From contig JARGOF010000010.1 of NCBI GenBank assembly GCA_029212415.1, positions 109,011 through 158,157 of the forward strand: a stretch of 49,147 bases of DNA. The letters run 5' to 3'. This DNA comes from Rhizobiaceae bacterium. GTDB taxonomy: Bacteria > Pseudomonadota > Alphaproteobacteria > Rhizobiales > Rhizobiaceae. The position numbers and the translations under genes are program-made. Below the pieces are notes generated by a model, which saw only the letters and a list, made by a program, of their open reading frames with translations, was not told the DNA's origin and made no database searches. Below are positions 5,002 to 39,144 of this stretch, one piece after another (position 1 is the first letter of the stretch; the number at the start of each line of letters is the position of its first letter).

Positions 5002-5325
5002 ATGACGCAATTTGCACTTGCAGATCTGGAAAAGATTGTTGCCCAAAGGGCTGCGGCTTCCATTGAAGAGTCCTGGACAGCCCGGCTGGTTTCCAAAGGC
5101 CAGGAAAAAGCCGCCCAAAAGCTGGGTGAAGAGGCTGTTGAGGCAGCGATTGCTGCAGTGACCGACAACCGTGAGGGCCTGACGGCCGAATCAGCGGACC
5201 TGCTCTACCATTTGCTTGTGGTTCTTCGCATTGCCGATATTCCCCTGTCGGATGTCATGGCAGAGCTGGAACGGCGAACGGCGCAGTCCGGCCTCGCAGA
5301 GAAGGCCGGTCGCGCATCATCATGA
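5002..5325 (+). CDS. hisE: Phosphoribosyl-ATP pyrophosphatase HisE
   Basis: HisE hydrolyses phosphoribosyl-ATP to phosphoribosyl-AMP, the second step of histidine synthesis. The 107-residue all-helical protein is the stand-alone form, not fused to HisI. The MazG-like metal-binding signature is clear: [14 protein letters not shown] followed by [13 protein letters not shown], with the Glu/Glu/Glu/Asp set that holds Mg. It is separated from hisF by the repeat-containing spacer and may have its own promoter there. Its stop overlaps the coaA start by 4 bases (ATGA), tying histidine synthesis to the pantothenate kinase gene. Confidence 0.96.
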
Positions 5326-36035: not shown

Positions 36036-36914
36036 CTATTCGGCAGTCTGCGGCGCTATCTTGTCCTGTGTTTTCAGGTCAAAGTCCGAGGCGTCGTGGC
36101 GCTCATGGAGCTGTTGTTCGAGCGGTCCCCAGGTGCGGTTCACCATGCGACCGCGTTGCACTGCCGGGCGTGCGAGAATGTCGTCTGTCCAGCGGCGCAG
36201 GTTTTTGTAAGACTCGACCTGCAGGAATTCCCCTGCCCCATAGGCATCGCCCATCGCAAGATTGCCGTACCAGGGCCAGGTGACCATATCGGCAATTGTG
36301 TATTCGTCACCACCAAGGAAACGGTTTTGCGCCAATTCCCGGTCAAGCACATCCATCTGGCGTTTCACTTCCATGGTGAAGCGGTTGATTGGATATTCGA
36401 ATTTTTCCGGTGCATAGGCGTAGAAATGGCCGAAACCGCCGCCCAGATAGGGGGCCGATCCCTGCAACCAGAAAAGCCAGTTCAGGGCTTCCGTGCGATG
36501 GGCCGCATCCTTTGGCAGGAAATGACCGAATTTCTCTGCAAGATACAGGAGGATCGCGCCGGATTCGAACACGCGGCTGCCGGTACCCGTGTCAAACAGT
36601 GCGGGGATTTTGGAGTTCGGATTGATGGCCACAAACCCGGACGAAAACTGTTCGCCATCGCCGATCCGAATCAGATGGGCGTCATATTCCGCACCGGTTT
36701 CGCCCAGTTCCAACAGCTCTTCGAGCATGATCGTGACCTTCTGGCCATTGGGTGTGCCGAGGGAATAAAGCTGCAGCGGATGCTTGCCGCGCGGCAGTTC
36801 AGCCTCATGCGTGGCGCCGGCGATCGGGCGGTTGATCTTTGACCAATTGCCGCCATTCTCGCTGTCCCAGGTCCAGACCTTGGGCGGCTCATAGGTAGTT
36901 GTCTCAGTCATCAT
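36036..36914 (-). CDS. yghU: YghU-type glutathione transferase / disulfide-bond reductase
   Basis: The 292-residue protein is a glutathione transferase of the nu class like E. coli YghU/YfcG, which reduce disulfides with glutathione and show peroxidase activity. Seen are the long N-terminal extension VWTWDSENGGNWSKINRP, the thioredoxin-fold segment LYSLGTPNGQKVTIMLEELL, the glutathione-binding NPNSKIPALFD and FESGAILLYLAEKFG, and helical C-domain motifs (GGFGHFYAYAPEK, YTIADMVTWPWYGNL). Two adjacent ATGs (36914, 36911) are possible starts; AGGGA lies just upstream. It follows tetR by 71 bases on the same strand, so it may be read together with frnE-tetR; a small hairpin lies between them. Confidence 0.92.
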   Translation of the reverse strand: MMTETTTYEPPKVWTWDSENGGNWSKINRPIAGATHEAELPRGKHPLQLYSLGTPNGQKVTIMLEELLELGETGAEYDAHLIRIGDGEQFSSGFVAINPNSKIPALFDTGTGSRVFESGAILLYLAEKFGHFLPKDAAHRTEALNWLFWLQGSAPYLGGGFGHFYAYAPEKFEYPINRFTMEVKRQMDVLDRELAQNRFLGGDEYTIADMVTWPWYGNLAMGDAYGAGEFLQVESYKNLRRWTDDILARPAVQRGRMVNRTWGPLEQQLHERHDASDFDLKTQDKIAPQTAE

Positions 36915-36985
36915 GGTTTCCCTAGTTGGTGTTTGGGGCAGGTCCCTGTGACGGGCCTGCTTCTTCGTTTAAGAAAATGTGAGGC

Positions 36986-37579
36986 CTAAATCCGCAATTG
37001 CTCAAGCTCTCTGGCCATGTCTTCAGCCAGATTCAAGATCTCATCTTGCGGTGTTCCCTGATGCAATTCGAACCGCAAAGCCGTGACATTCGCCTGAAAG
37101 CGCCTGGCCAAACGGTTGCTGTCTGCGTCGGCAGGCAACTCGCCCAGGGCTTTGGCCCGGTCAAAGGTGGCAGCAAAATCGCTGCGGATTTGACCAAGAT
37201 ATTCCTGGGTCTTTTGTGCGATCACCGGATCCGTGCTGCGCGTATCCACCAGTGATTTTGTCAACATGCATGCCTGCCGGGCGGTGTCGCCCTGTGACAG
37301 CCGGGCATAGGATCGTAAATGTTCGCCAAGGCCGGCCAGTGGAGAAGATGCCTGTTGCAATTGCGTGCGCAGCCGGGCGCGCGCGGTTTTGAAATAGTGT
37401 TCCAAGGACAATAGATACAGGTTTTCCTTGCTGCAGAATGCCGCATAAATGCTGCCTGGCTTCATATGAAGCGTGGCCTCAAGGTCTTTCAGAGACGTCG
37501 CATGATAGCCCTTGTCCCAGAACAGGGACATGGCGGCATCAAGTGCGATTTCTCGATCATAGGGTGCGGCACGAACCAT
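36986..37579 (-). CDS. TetR/AcrR-family regulator, likely thiol-responsive
   Basis: The 197-residue protein has a TetR helix-turn-helix at residues 8-55: REIALDAAMSLFWDKGYHAT, SLKDLEATLHMKPGSIYAAF and SKENLY. The C-terminal half is an all-helical ligand/dimer domain with RQACMLTKSLVDTR, the position where many TetR proteins have GCLLxN. Only two cysteines are present, Cys49 in the recognition region and Cys104 in the core. Cys104 sits where the redox-sensing NemR has its sensory Cys, by my alignment. The ATG at 37579 lies 4 bases after the frnE stop, so it is co-transcribed with frnE. Palindromes in front of frnE and the AhpD-like gene are the probable operators, implying autoregulation. Confidence 0.9.
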   Translation of the reverse strand: MVRAAPYDREIALDAAMSLFWDKGYHATSLKDLEATLHMKPGSIYAAFCSKENLYLLSLEHYFKTARARLRTQLQQASSPLAGLGEHLRSYARLSQGDTARQACMLTKSLVDTRSTDPVIAQKTQEYLGQIRSDFAATFDRAKALGELPADADSNRLARRFQANVTALRFELHQGTPQDEILNLAEDMARELEQLRI

Positions 37580-37583
37580 TGTC

Positions 37584-38237
37584 TCAGTCCTGCATATCTG
37601 CCAGCTGGTTGAGGATGCTGGTGTAATTGTCGACGCCTTGCGCACCGGTGACAAGGTGGCGGCGGTTGAAAACCATCGCCGGGACGCCCTGAATGCCCTG
37701 GCTCGTCCAGAATTTCTCGGCTTCGCGCACCACCGGTGCAAAACGCTGGTCGGCCAGCACTGCCAGCGCCTCGTCTCTGTCGAGCCCGATTTCGGATGCC
37801 ACATCGGCAAGAACATTGTCATCCGACAGGTTGCGCCCGTTGGTGAAATGGGCGGTGAAAAGCGCCATCTTCAGGTCGTGTTTGCGACCGAAGCCATCCG
37901 CCCAATGCAAAAGCTGATGGGTGTTGAAGGTGTTGTGCATGTGCGAGTCTGCTGAAAAGCGAAAGTCAAAACCGAGCTCGGTTCCAAGCGCTGCCAACTG
38001 AACACGGCTCTGTTCGGATTGTTCGGGCGTCGTGCCGTATTTCTCGGTGATATGCTCGCGCAGGTTCTGGCCTTCAGGTGGCATGGCCGGGTTCAGTTCG
38101 AATGGATGCCAATGCACTTCATGGGCGGTGCCTGTAGCTTCGAGCGCCTTTGCAATCTGGCGGTATCCGACGATACACCAGGGGCAGACCACATCCGACA
38201 CAATGTCGATGCGCAAGGGTTCGGCTTTGCTATTCAT
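37584..38237 (-). CDS. FrnE-like DsbA-family oxidoreductase
   Basis: The 217-residue protein belongs to the cytosolic DsbA-like FrnE/2-hydroxychromene-2-carboxylate isomerase group. It has the redox motif Cys18-Pro-Trp-Cys21 in IDIVSDVVCPWCIVGYRQI, the helical insert typical of the family (HNTFNTHQLLHWADGFGRKH) and the cis-Pro loop GIQGVPAMVFNRRH. There is no signal peptide, so it acts in the cytoplasm, probably on disulfides or as a chaperone-like thiol protein. The ATG at 38237 (MNSKAEPLRI) matches homologues; a longer open frame starts at 38270. It is the first gene of frnE-tetR, and its promoter overlaps a TTGAGY-type palindrome about 107 bases upstream. Confidence 0.92.
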   Translation of the reverse strand: MNSKAEPLRIDIVSDVVCPWCIVGYRQIAKALEATGTAHEVHWHPFELNPAMPPEGQNLREHITEKYGTTPEQSEQSRVQLAALGTELGFDFRFSADSHMHNTFNTHQLLHWADGFGRKHDLKMALFTAHFTNGRNLSDDNVLADVASEIGLDRDEALAVLADQRFAPVVREAEKFWTSQGIQGVPAMVFNRRHLVTGAQGVDNYTSILNQLADMQD

Positions 38238-38343
38238 GATGTCTCCATAGGTGTTCGGCTTGCCTTTCAAGCGCTACAGCGTCAACACGTAAACTGTTTC
38301 CAGGCATACGGGTGAGCCTCTTCATGCCAACCATATGGTGTTT

Positions 38344-38359
38344 TTGAGCGATCACTCAA
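38344..38359 (-). promoter_or_regulatory. TetR operator candidate and promoter of frnE-tetR
   Basis: On the minus strand the site reads TTGAGTGATCGCTCAA, a 16-bp palindrome with one mismatched pair. Its left end can serve as a -35 box, with a TATGGT-like -10 box 18 bases later (near 38331-38336). The same arrangement, including the CTCAAARAYACC bases that follow, is found at the AhpD-like gene. Confidence 0.7.
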
Positions 38360-38448
38360 TGCTTTTCCAAAAAAATACACGAAATTTCAGGTCAAATGAC
38401 AGGGGCAAGCCGCAAGGTCCGAAAGGATGTCCACGCGCAGGGGCTGGA

Positions 38449-38476
38449 TTGCCGGAGTGGTCGCCCACCCCGGCAA
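38449..38476 (-). terminator. Hairpin directly after the AhpD-like gene
   Basis: TTGCCGG-A-GTGG pairs with CCAC-C-CCGGCAA around TCGC, a 12-position stem with a single mismatch, 4 bases past the stop codon. No T run follows on the minus strand, so it may stop transcription weakly or protect the mRNA 3' end. Confidence 0.5.
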
Positions 38477-38480
38477 TTTG

Positions 38481-39050
38481 CTATTCAGCGGCGATGGCTG
38501 ATTTCCTTTGCCAGGCAAACTTTTGGAACACTTGGTCGACAGGGGTTTTTGCAAAGTGGTTGGTGTAGTTGGACATCAGCTTTTGCGCCGCTCCCAGAAT
38601 GATTTCGAGGATGTTGGTTTCAGTAAAGCCGGCGTCGAGAAATGCCTGGGTATCGGCGTCAGACACGAATCCACGGTCACGGAGCATCACCAAAGTGAAT
38701 GTGCGCAGTGCTTCGAGCTTGGCTGTCGGCAGGGGCGTCTCGTCGCGCAGAGCTTCGGTAATGGCATCGTCGACCTTCATCATCTTTGCAATTCCCGTGT
38801 GGGCGGGCACGCAATAGTGGCAGTTGTTTTCGACGTTGATGGTTTGCCAGACAACGGTTTTCTCTTCATCGGTCAGCGTGGTCGCCATGAACTGCTGGTG
38901 GGCAAAATTATAGGCGGCCAGCAAAGGTGGCGCGTCGGCCATTGTGCCATGCAGGCCGGGAATGCGACCGTTGTTTTTAAGCGAGGTTTCCAGAAGTGGC
39001 TTACCGGCTTCGGGGGCGGATTCGATTGTGTGGATCGGGAAGTTTGCCAT
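38481..39050 (-). CDS. AhpD-like carboxymuconolactone decarboxylase family protein
   Basis: The 189-residue all-helical protein has the AhpD-type redox site Cys77-His-Tyr-Cys80 followed by His84, in VENNCHYCVPAHTGIAKM. In AhpD this pair reduces peroxiredoxin and breaks down peroxides. The rest (LTDEEKTVVWQTIN, KLEALRTFTLVMLRDRG, FTETNILEIILGAAQKLMSN) fits uncharacterised CMD-family proteins sometimes linked to TetR regulators. It is not AhpD itself, since no AhpC is next to it. The ATG at 39050 has AAGGA 7 bases upstream. Two TTGAG-type palindromes cover its promoter, the same sites found at frnE-tetR. Confidence 0.9.
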   Translation of the reverse strand: MANFPIHTIESAPEAGKPLLETSLKNNGRIPGLHGTMADAPPLLAAYNFAHQQFMATTLTDEEKTVVWQTINVENNCHYCVPAHTGIAKMMKVDDAITEALRDETPLPTAKLEALRTFTLVMLRDRGFVSDADTQAFLDAGFTETNILEIILGAAQKLMSNYTNHFAKTPVDQVFQKFAWQRKSAIAAE

Positions 39051-39104
39051 GGTGTGTCCTTTCAGGCGCGATTTTCGTGTTCGATGGCACACACATAGGT
39101 ATCT

Positions 39105-39144
39105 TTGAGCGATTGCTCAAATAAATAATTGAGTGATCACTCAA
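39105..39144 (-). promoter_or_regulatory. Double TetR operator and promoter of the AhpD-like gene
   Basis: Two 16-bp palindromes lie 24 bases apart: TTGAGCAATCGCTCAA (minus strand, 39105-39120, one mismatched pair) and the perfect TTGAGTGATCACTCAA (39129-39144). In the proximal site TTGAGC works as a -35 box with TATGTG as -10 box exactly 17 bases further, giving a start about 45 bases before the ATG. Repressor binding here would block RNA polymerase directly. Confidence 0.75.

Follow-up and report, generated by a model that had tools for sequence, protein, structure and literature searches.

The closest described counterparts of the gene unit analyzed here are the alt clusters for thiosulfinate tolerance, in which an autoregulating TetR repressor accompanies a set of carboxymuconolactone decarboxylase (CMD)/AhpD and DsbA/FrnE-like proteins in Pantoea and in Pseudomonas PfAR-1 (PMC7119367, PMC13178969). 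In PfAR-1, resistance to allicin was raised by ahpD, and also by a dsbA/frnE-like gene, when either was present on its own (PMC7119367). Pairs of altC and altE from diverse bacteria raised thiosulfinate tolerance, those of Gluconobacter weakly (PMC12306174). The AltR repressor of P. ananatis has the operator CAATCTAC-N6-GTAGATTG and cannot be released by thiosulfinates without its Cys100 (PMC13178969). Here, we analyze a comparable unit in a 49,147-nucleotide stretch from the genome of a Rhizobiaceae bacterium (GenBank assembly GCA_029212415.1, contig JARGOF010000010.1, positions 109,011 to 158,157; hereafter the window). It comprises genes for an AhpD-like CMD-family protein, a FrnE/DsbA-like oxidoreductase and a TetR-family regulator, followed by yghU. 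We consider it probable that these genes form a self-contained, autoregulated TetR stress regulon with a thiol-reactive or oxidizing trigger and CxxC enzymes as effectors.

In its logic, the unit parallels the NemR system and the alt clusters for thiosulfinate tolerance, yet it does not belong to the latter. As in those clusters, the key cysteine of the regulator is near residue 100 and the operator lies over a promoter (PMC7119367, PMC13178969). However, the window operator, TTGAGYRATYRCTCAA, is unlike the AltR operator of P. ananatis, two palindromes are in tandem, and no thioredoxin, Old Yellow Enzyme (OYE), Gor or OsmC genes are present beside the unit in its list of open reading frames (ORFs). 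The NemR-nemA-gloA system of Escherichia coli has a similar logic, as described in PMC13178969, but other target enzymes. The FrnE of the window shares the FrnE-type DsbA fold of the solved structure 5cp1 and related entries (E = 1.1e-32) and differs from these in being located in a TetR regulon. CssR of Corynebacterium, also a TetR stress repressor, was rejected as a counterpart; its operator is unlike that of the window, and its cysteines are reported to lack redox activity (PMC8176726). Searches of the literature library, judged mostly from listings, found no description of this TetR/AhpD-like/FrnE regulon. The core string of the palindrome occurs in PMC10953048, a paper which by its title has another subject.

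Locations of the operator are specific to this unit in its own genome. A scan of 5,840,053 bases of the host genome identified three exact matches to TTGAGYRATYRCTCAA, all at this locus, against a chance expectation of ∼0.02 (equal base frequencies; 12 fixed and four two-fold positions). One match precedes frnE-tetR and two are in tandem before the AhpD-like gene (table 1). A preliminary description of the window had placed the three palindromes at the same coordinates, called the distal one perfect, and found no further copy by eye; all of this is confirmed, the last at the scale of the 5.84 Mb genome. At two mismatches, 14 further places are present in the host genome, 12 within ORFs of at least 90 aa and two (L007 and L158) in intergenic positions or at gene edges, and nothing in these is convincing as a wider regulon.

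Across genomes, the operator correlates with the presence of this type of TetR. Six of 101 related genomes have an exact palindrome. All four genomes that encode a TetR at least 59% identical (59–100%) have exact sites (three, three, two and two) at the AhpD-like/FrnE/TetR locus, versus two of the 97 others (hypergeometric P = 3.7e-6). The latter two are G061, in which one site is inside an ORF, and G017. The TetR of G017 is 35% identical and its gene is beside an AhpD-like gene with a diverged pair, TTGAGTGATTGTTCAA and TTGAATGATCATTCAA, 24 bases apart. Confinement of hits to frnE-tetR and the AhpD-like gene, suggested as a check in the preliminary description, thus holds in the host genome (three of three), whereas occasional single sites occur elsewhere in other genomes, as in G061 and G017. 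Similarly, among 385 genomes of the class, eight have an exact site. In the host genome, G164 and G442, the sites are pairs at AhpD-like genes; the remaining five genomes have single exact sites at unrelated genes. Single exact palindromes of loci L012, L136, L137, L138 and L140 are inside unrelated ORFs, and that of L141 falls near an unrelated ORF, either within its opening codons, if the longest form is taken, or in the leader.

The operator is also conserved at orthologous loci, which we define as the best 80 of 429 TetR relatives, fetched with their flanks (966,574 bases; 81 loci with the window). The 80 loci have 117 exact, 29 one-mismatch and 11 two-mismatch sites; the reversed-pattern control has zero in each category. 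An exact site is present in 66 loci, a site with at most one mismatch in 74 and a site with at most two in 79 of 80, so conservation where the genes are kept, another check set by the preliminary description, is borne out. Tandem pairs are present in 69 of 80 loci, mostly before the AhpD-like gene, and across 71 pairings, the spacing is 24 bases in 57, 25 in nine, 23 in four and 34 in one. The arrangement of genes varies. The AhpD-like gene is on the strand of TetR in 46 of the 81 loci and divergent in 25, with the site between the two genes in divergent loci; seven loci have only YghU, one has only FrnE and two have none of the three. FrnE is present in 47 of 81. In the closely related locus L056 (TetR 93% identical), the position of the site before frnE-tetR is retained, at 5220. 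That gene order changes while the site stays with the promoter argues for a TetR regulon. In a TetR tree of 87 rows, in which L145 and L146 are long branches, layouts are clustered (seven changes vs. 33.6 on average after shuffling, with a bootstrap that had not settled).

A search that did not use TetR led to the same loci. When 398 Pseudomonadota genomes were searched for the pair alone, at a fixed spacing of 24 bases and with up to three mismatches, matches were found in seven, and all seven immediately precede an AhpD-like gene that has this type of TetR beside it. The TetRs are 36–63% identical in five of these; in L152, the stretch holds only the first 26 residues of TetR, and that of the host genome lies just past the stretch that was fetched, although the window includes it. 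Genome uniqueness, the counts in related genomes, the reversed-pattern control and the pair-only search together rule out a chance origin of the palindromes. As judged from these comparisons, TetR very probably controls its own gene along with the AhpD-like gene and frnE. The self-regulated compact regulon put forward in the preliminary description is therefore strongly supported by the genome-unique sites, the contrast of four of four with two of 97 genomes, and the 79 of 80 loci. If so, the unit is a complete and testable regulon of one repressor, one operator code and two to three target genes, in an arrangement shared by many Alphaproteobacteria, marine and otherwise.

Table 1. Features of the TetR unit, in coordinates of the window
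Feature	Position	Strand	Length	Details
Distal operator palindrome before AhpD-like gene	39129-39144			TTGAGTGATCACTCAA; perfect; 24 bases from proximal palindrome
Proximal operator palindrome before AhpD-like gene	39105-39120			TTGAGCGATTGCTCAA; exact fit to TTGAGYRATYRCTCAA, imperfect palindrome
Operator palindrome before frnE-tetR	38344-38359			TTGAGCGATCACTCAA; exact fit to TTGAGYRATYRCTCAA, imperfect palindrome
AhpD-like gene promoter	-35, 39120-39115; candidate -10, 39097-39092	-		TTGAGC, 17 bases, TATGTG
frnE promoter	-35, 38359-38354; candidate -10, 38335-38330	-		TTGAGT, 18 bases, TATGGT
AhpD-like CMD-family protein	38481..39050	-	189 aa	C77-x2-C80-x3-H84; PF02627, 26.4 bits (cut-off 23)
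FrnE/DsbA-like oxidoreductase	37584..38237	-	217 aa	CPWC at residues 18-21; PF01323, 1.5e-37; solved FrnE 5cp1, 1.1e-32
TetR-family regulator	36986..37579	-	197 aa	Start MVRAAPYD; PF00440, 4.2e-12; PF16925, 1.1e-7 (above cut-off); candidate sensor Cys104
YghU, glutathione-dependent disulfide-bond oxidoreductase	36036..36914	-	292 aa	NF008731, 513 bits (cut-off 325)

Positions of the palindromes relative to promoter elements suggest how the operator acts. The preliminary description held that the left end of the palindrome doubles as a -35 box, that CTCAAARAYACC follows and that a TATG-containing -10 box lies 17–18 bases on. Both window promoters fit this description, and comparison supports the predicted use of the palindrome end as the -35 box. 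Conservation is narrower than described, though: beyond CTCAA, orthologues conserve CTCAAARAYACC only weakly, and their -10 box is centered on TA, with TATG in only eight of 69 promoters. These 69 are from the 81 loci and have an AhpD-like match that begins close to the N-terminus, with a site no more than 420 bases away. The distance from the end of the proximal palindrome to the AhpD-like start has a median of 60 bases (range of 43–286; n = 69). In 62 of 69, a TA starts 7–9 bases past the proximal palindrome, which corresponds to 16–18 bases from the TTGAGY hexamer. A proximal palindrome over the -35 box, along with a conserved position of the -10 box, fits repression by blocking of the -35 region, and we infer that the AhpD-like promoter is repressed rather than activated.

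The enzymes have the residues expected of thiol chemistry in the earlier account, in which the gene identities (AhpD-like with CHYC-xxx-H, FrnE with CPWC, TetR and YghU) were correctly called according to profile matches. In the AhpD-like protein, C77, C80, H84, E63 and E74 are invariant in all 70 full-length matches (>100 residues, and thus without locus L072). In FrnE, C18, P19, W20 and C21 are each present in 47 of 47. Among solved structures, 6e8l and 3lvy are the nearest relatives of the AhpD-like protein, which with 35.7 bits is below the curated cut-off (81.8 bits) of the peroxidase-related subfamily TIGR01926.

The regulator resembles sensors that have a cysteine at the same position. 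An AlphaFold2 model of TetR (mean pLDDT of 92.8) has a fold that matches TetR structures; the structure alignment drew on 51 sequences, namely those of the window, of L024 and of 49 among the 80 loci. CifR–operator complexes make up the top five solved matches (TM of 0.82–0.83; 27–28% identity), and the solved C107S variant of CifR alters the same cysteine position. CifR controls an epoxide hydrolase circuit in Pseudomonas aeruginosa, and in this it differs from the window unit. Reduced NemR shares the TetR fold and matches the model with a TM of 0.80, but at only 14–15% identity in the structural alignment. Both a profile and MAFFT align C104 of the window TetR with C106 of NemR, which reportedly senses bleach and electrophiles. 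C104 also aligns with Cys101, next to Cys100, in the alt-type TetR of an onion isolate of Pantoea agglomerans. Cys104 is present in 81 of 81 loci.

These features are compatible with a simple mechanism. Dimers of TetR would bind the 16-bp palindromes TTGAGYRATYRCTCAA, with two dimers side by side, 24 bp apart, before the AhpD-like gene. As the proximal of these sites overlies the -35 box, binding of TetR is predicted to block transcription of the AhpD-like gene. The single site would likewise block frnE-tetR, with yghU probably transcribed by read-through, and because this site precedes the gene of the repressor, the loop would be self-regulating. A thiol-reactive or oxidizing compound would most likely modify Cys104, or fill the adjoining pocket, and the repressor would be released. 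The AhpD-like protein and FrnE, with their CxxC motifs, and YghU where present, may then remove the compound or undo mixed disulfides. Comparison across loci and genomes shows the operator, its location, the tandem spacing, the overlap with the -35 box, gene membership and the linkage to this TetR. By contrast, binding of the sites by this TetR, repression rather than activation, a sensor role for Cys104, the inducer class and the repair of disulfides are predicted. We read the trigger as most likely a signal of thiol stress. A pairing of TetR and operators with these properties could serve as a ready reporter for reactive compounds met by these bacteria.

Some results weigh against this reading. 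Locus L072 is the sole one of the 80 without a site, and its AhpD-like match spans only residues 81–170. Only three-mismatch forms are present in Vibrio locus L148, and frnE of G053 is without a site of its own. In the seven YghU-only loci, sites are weaker, with one two-mismatch site in five, one one-mismatch site in L114 and a one-mismatch pair in L090. A mechanical sigma-70 scan, with a threshold of nine of 12 positions, listed neither window promoter. A hairpin of 11 pairs between tetR and yghU (36935–36963; its T-rich tail was scored on the plus strand only) could limit read-through into yghU. All 25 non-orthologous TetR relatives examined in neighboring genomes have Cys104 as well; it is thus non-discriminating and was rejected as specific proof of redox sensing. 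Finally, AltR, which controls a similar set of genes, responds to thiosulfinates and not to N-ethylmaleimide (NEM), diamide or H2O2 (PMC13178969), so that electrophiles or peroxides may be too broad a range of signals. The sensing of electrophiles or peroxides and the repair of cytosolic disulfides, proposed in the preliminary description, are reasonable in view of the genes present, but the TetR has no feature that is diagnostic of them.

A broader proposal is more tentative, and we favor it less than the stress regulon itself. TetR and its tandem pair may be an undescribed, widespread and portable switch for stress by reactive sulfur or electrophiles that arose independently of alt. The AhpD-like CMD, the most constant partner, would then be a reductase dedicated to mixed disulfides and have a new class of substrates. 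This possibility draws on occurrences on a mobilizable plasmid and in Gammaproteobacteria. In the plasmid loci L145, L146 and L149, whose TetRs are 32–40% identical, the pair is in part in a diverged form. Partly diverged pairs, which also count in favor of the stress regulon itself, are located between the TetR gene and the AhpD-like gene or its operon in an IncC plasmid of E. coli, in Pseudoalteromonas and in Phaeobacter. The unit also offers a test of whether CMD/AhpD and FrnE are a general solution to disulfide stress that was reached more than once, as a comparison with alt would suggest.

Alternatively, the same regulon and operators could respond to a particular metabolite, for example one that is aromatic, halogenated or a lactone, which TetR senses non-covalently, and the AhpD-like protein would be a catabolic rather than a stress enzyme. 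This is the strongest of the competing explanations but is unlikely. It is consistent with Cys104 belonging to a wider subfamily (the 25 of 25 relatives), with an IncC plasmid pair that heads genes for a haloacid dehalogenase and a CMD, and with an operon in L083 that is headed by genes for a short-chain dehydrogenase and an NnrU-family protein. However, thiol enzymes recur at these loci, with FrnE in 47 and YghU in 15 of 81, and the CxxC-x3-H motif is invariant in 70 of 70 AhpD-like proteins.

That the unit is itself an alt cluster, with orthologues of AltR, AltE and AltC, is highly improbable. The kinds of protein are the same (TetR, CMD/AhpD and DsbA/FrnE; PMC7119367, PMC12306174), but direct comparison with one alt-type cluster, from the onion isolate of P. 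agglomerans, largely refutes membership. Its TetR matches that of the window over 46 residues only in BLAST, and its 112-aa CMD has no BLAST match to the 189-aa AhpD-like protein at E values up to 10. Its DsbA, which we take to be AltC by our own reading, is 29% identical to the window FrnE over 218 columns (E = 3.6e-16) and is of the same superfamily. In addition, the AltR operator of P. ananatis is unlike that of the window. Since the compared alt-type TetR and CMD are not orthologous, the work on alt is a precedent for these kinds of protein, not for these proteins.

That the palindromes belong to another regulator, with TetR a mere neighbor, is likewise highly improbable, given that sites follow this TetR across layouts, are missing from the three AhpD-like genes examined without it and are replaced by a different repeat in same-genus pairs in which TetR is only 26–29% identical. 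The three genes (L196, L197 and L198; 57–59% identical) were chosen from 462 plasmid records with an AhpD-like match; their 5.5-kb stretches have no TetR match at an E value of 1e-3 and no site with fewer than three mismatches. The different repeat is that of G003, G005 and G001, described below. Taken together, the sites at TetR-bearing loci, their absence from TetR-less AhpD-like genes and the differing repeat suggest that the site tracks this TetR rather than the AhpD-like gene.

The position of YghU in the regulon is less constant. The span of the preliminary description covers tetR, frnE and the AhpD-like gene and omits yghU, although the protein was discussed there. A YghU more than 60% identical is encoded in 15 of 81 loci, and in 12 of these, its gene is directly after tetR on the same strand. 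The yghU of the window has no operator of its own. Its membership is thus plausible by way of read-through, and yghU is likely an optional partner of the regulon.

Several loci differ in configuration. In genomes G003, G005 and G001 of the same genus (L170, L171 and L172, upstream of position 1501), related pairs of TetR and AhpD-like genes have, ahead of the AhpD-like gene, repeats around ACCGATYGGT in place of the palindrome. Their TetRs are 26–29% and their AhpD-like proteins 40–47% identical to those of the window, and the pairs are a sister module with another operator. In G017, the exact site (L054:5674-5689) is on a contig other than that of the TetR–AhpD pair. A gene for a glutathione transferase, with a plausible GTG start 34 bases beyond the site, is a possible extra member of the regulon; the longest ORF of this gene starts upstream of the palindrome and spans the site. 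Paracoccus sp. JM45 (L087 and L131) and Pacificibacter marinus (L102 and L107) each have two such TetRs, one with YghU and a second GST-like match and the other with an AhpD-like gene, and these may be specialized paralogues. In Shimia sp. Alg240-R146 (L083:2806-4872), the pair heads a same-strand run of genes for a short-chain dehydrogenase, an NnrU-family protein, an AhpD-like protein, FrnE and TetR. On an IncC plasmid of E. coli from veal (L145:4588-6642), TetR is divergent from genes for a type II haloacid dehalogenase and an AhpD-like protein, and one copy of the operator pair is exact and the other has two mismatches. Plasmids of Klebsiella, Salmonella, Citrobacter and Providencia, many from bovine, milk and human samples, have TetR and AhpD-like matches at the level of identity of L145.

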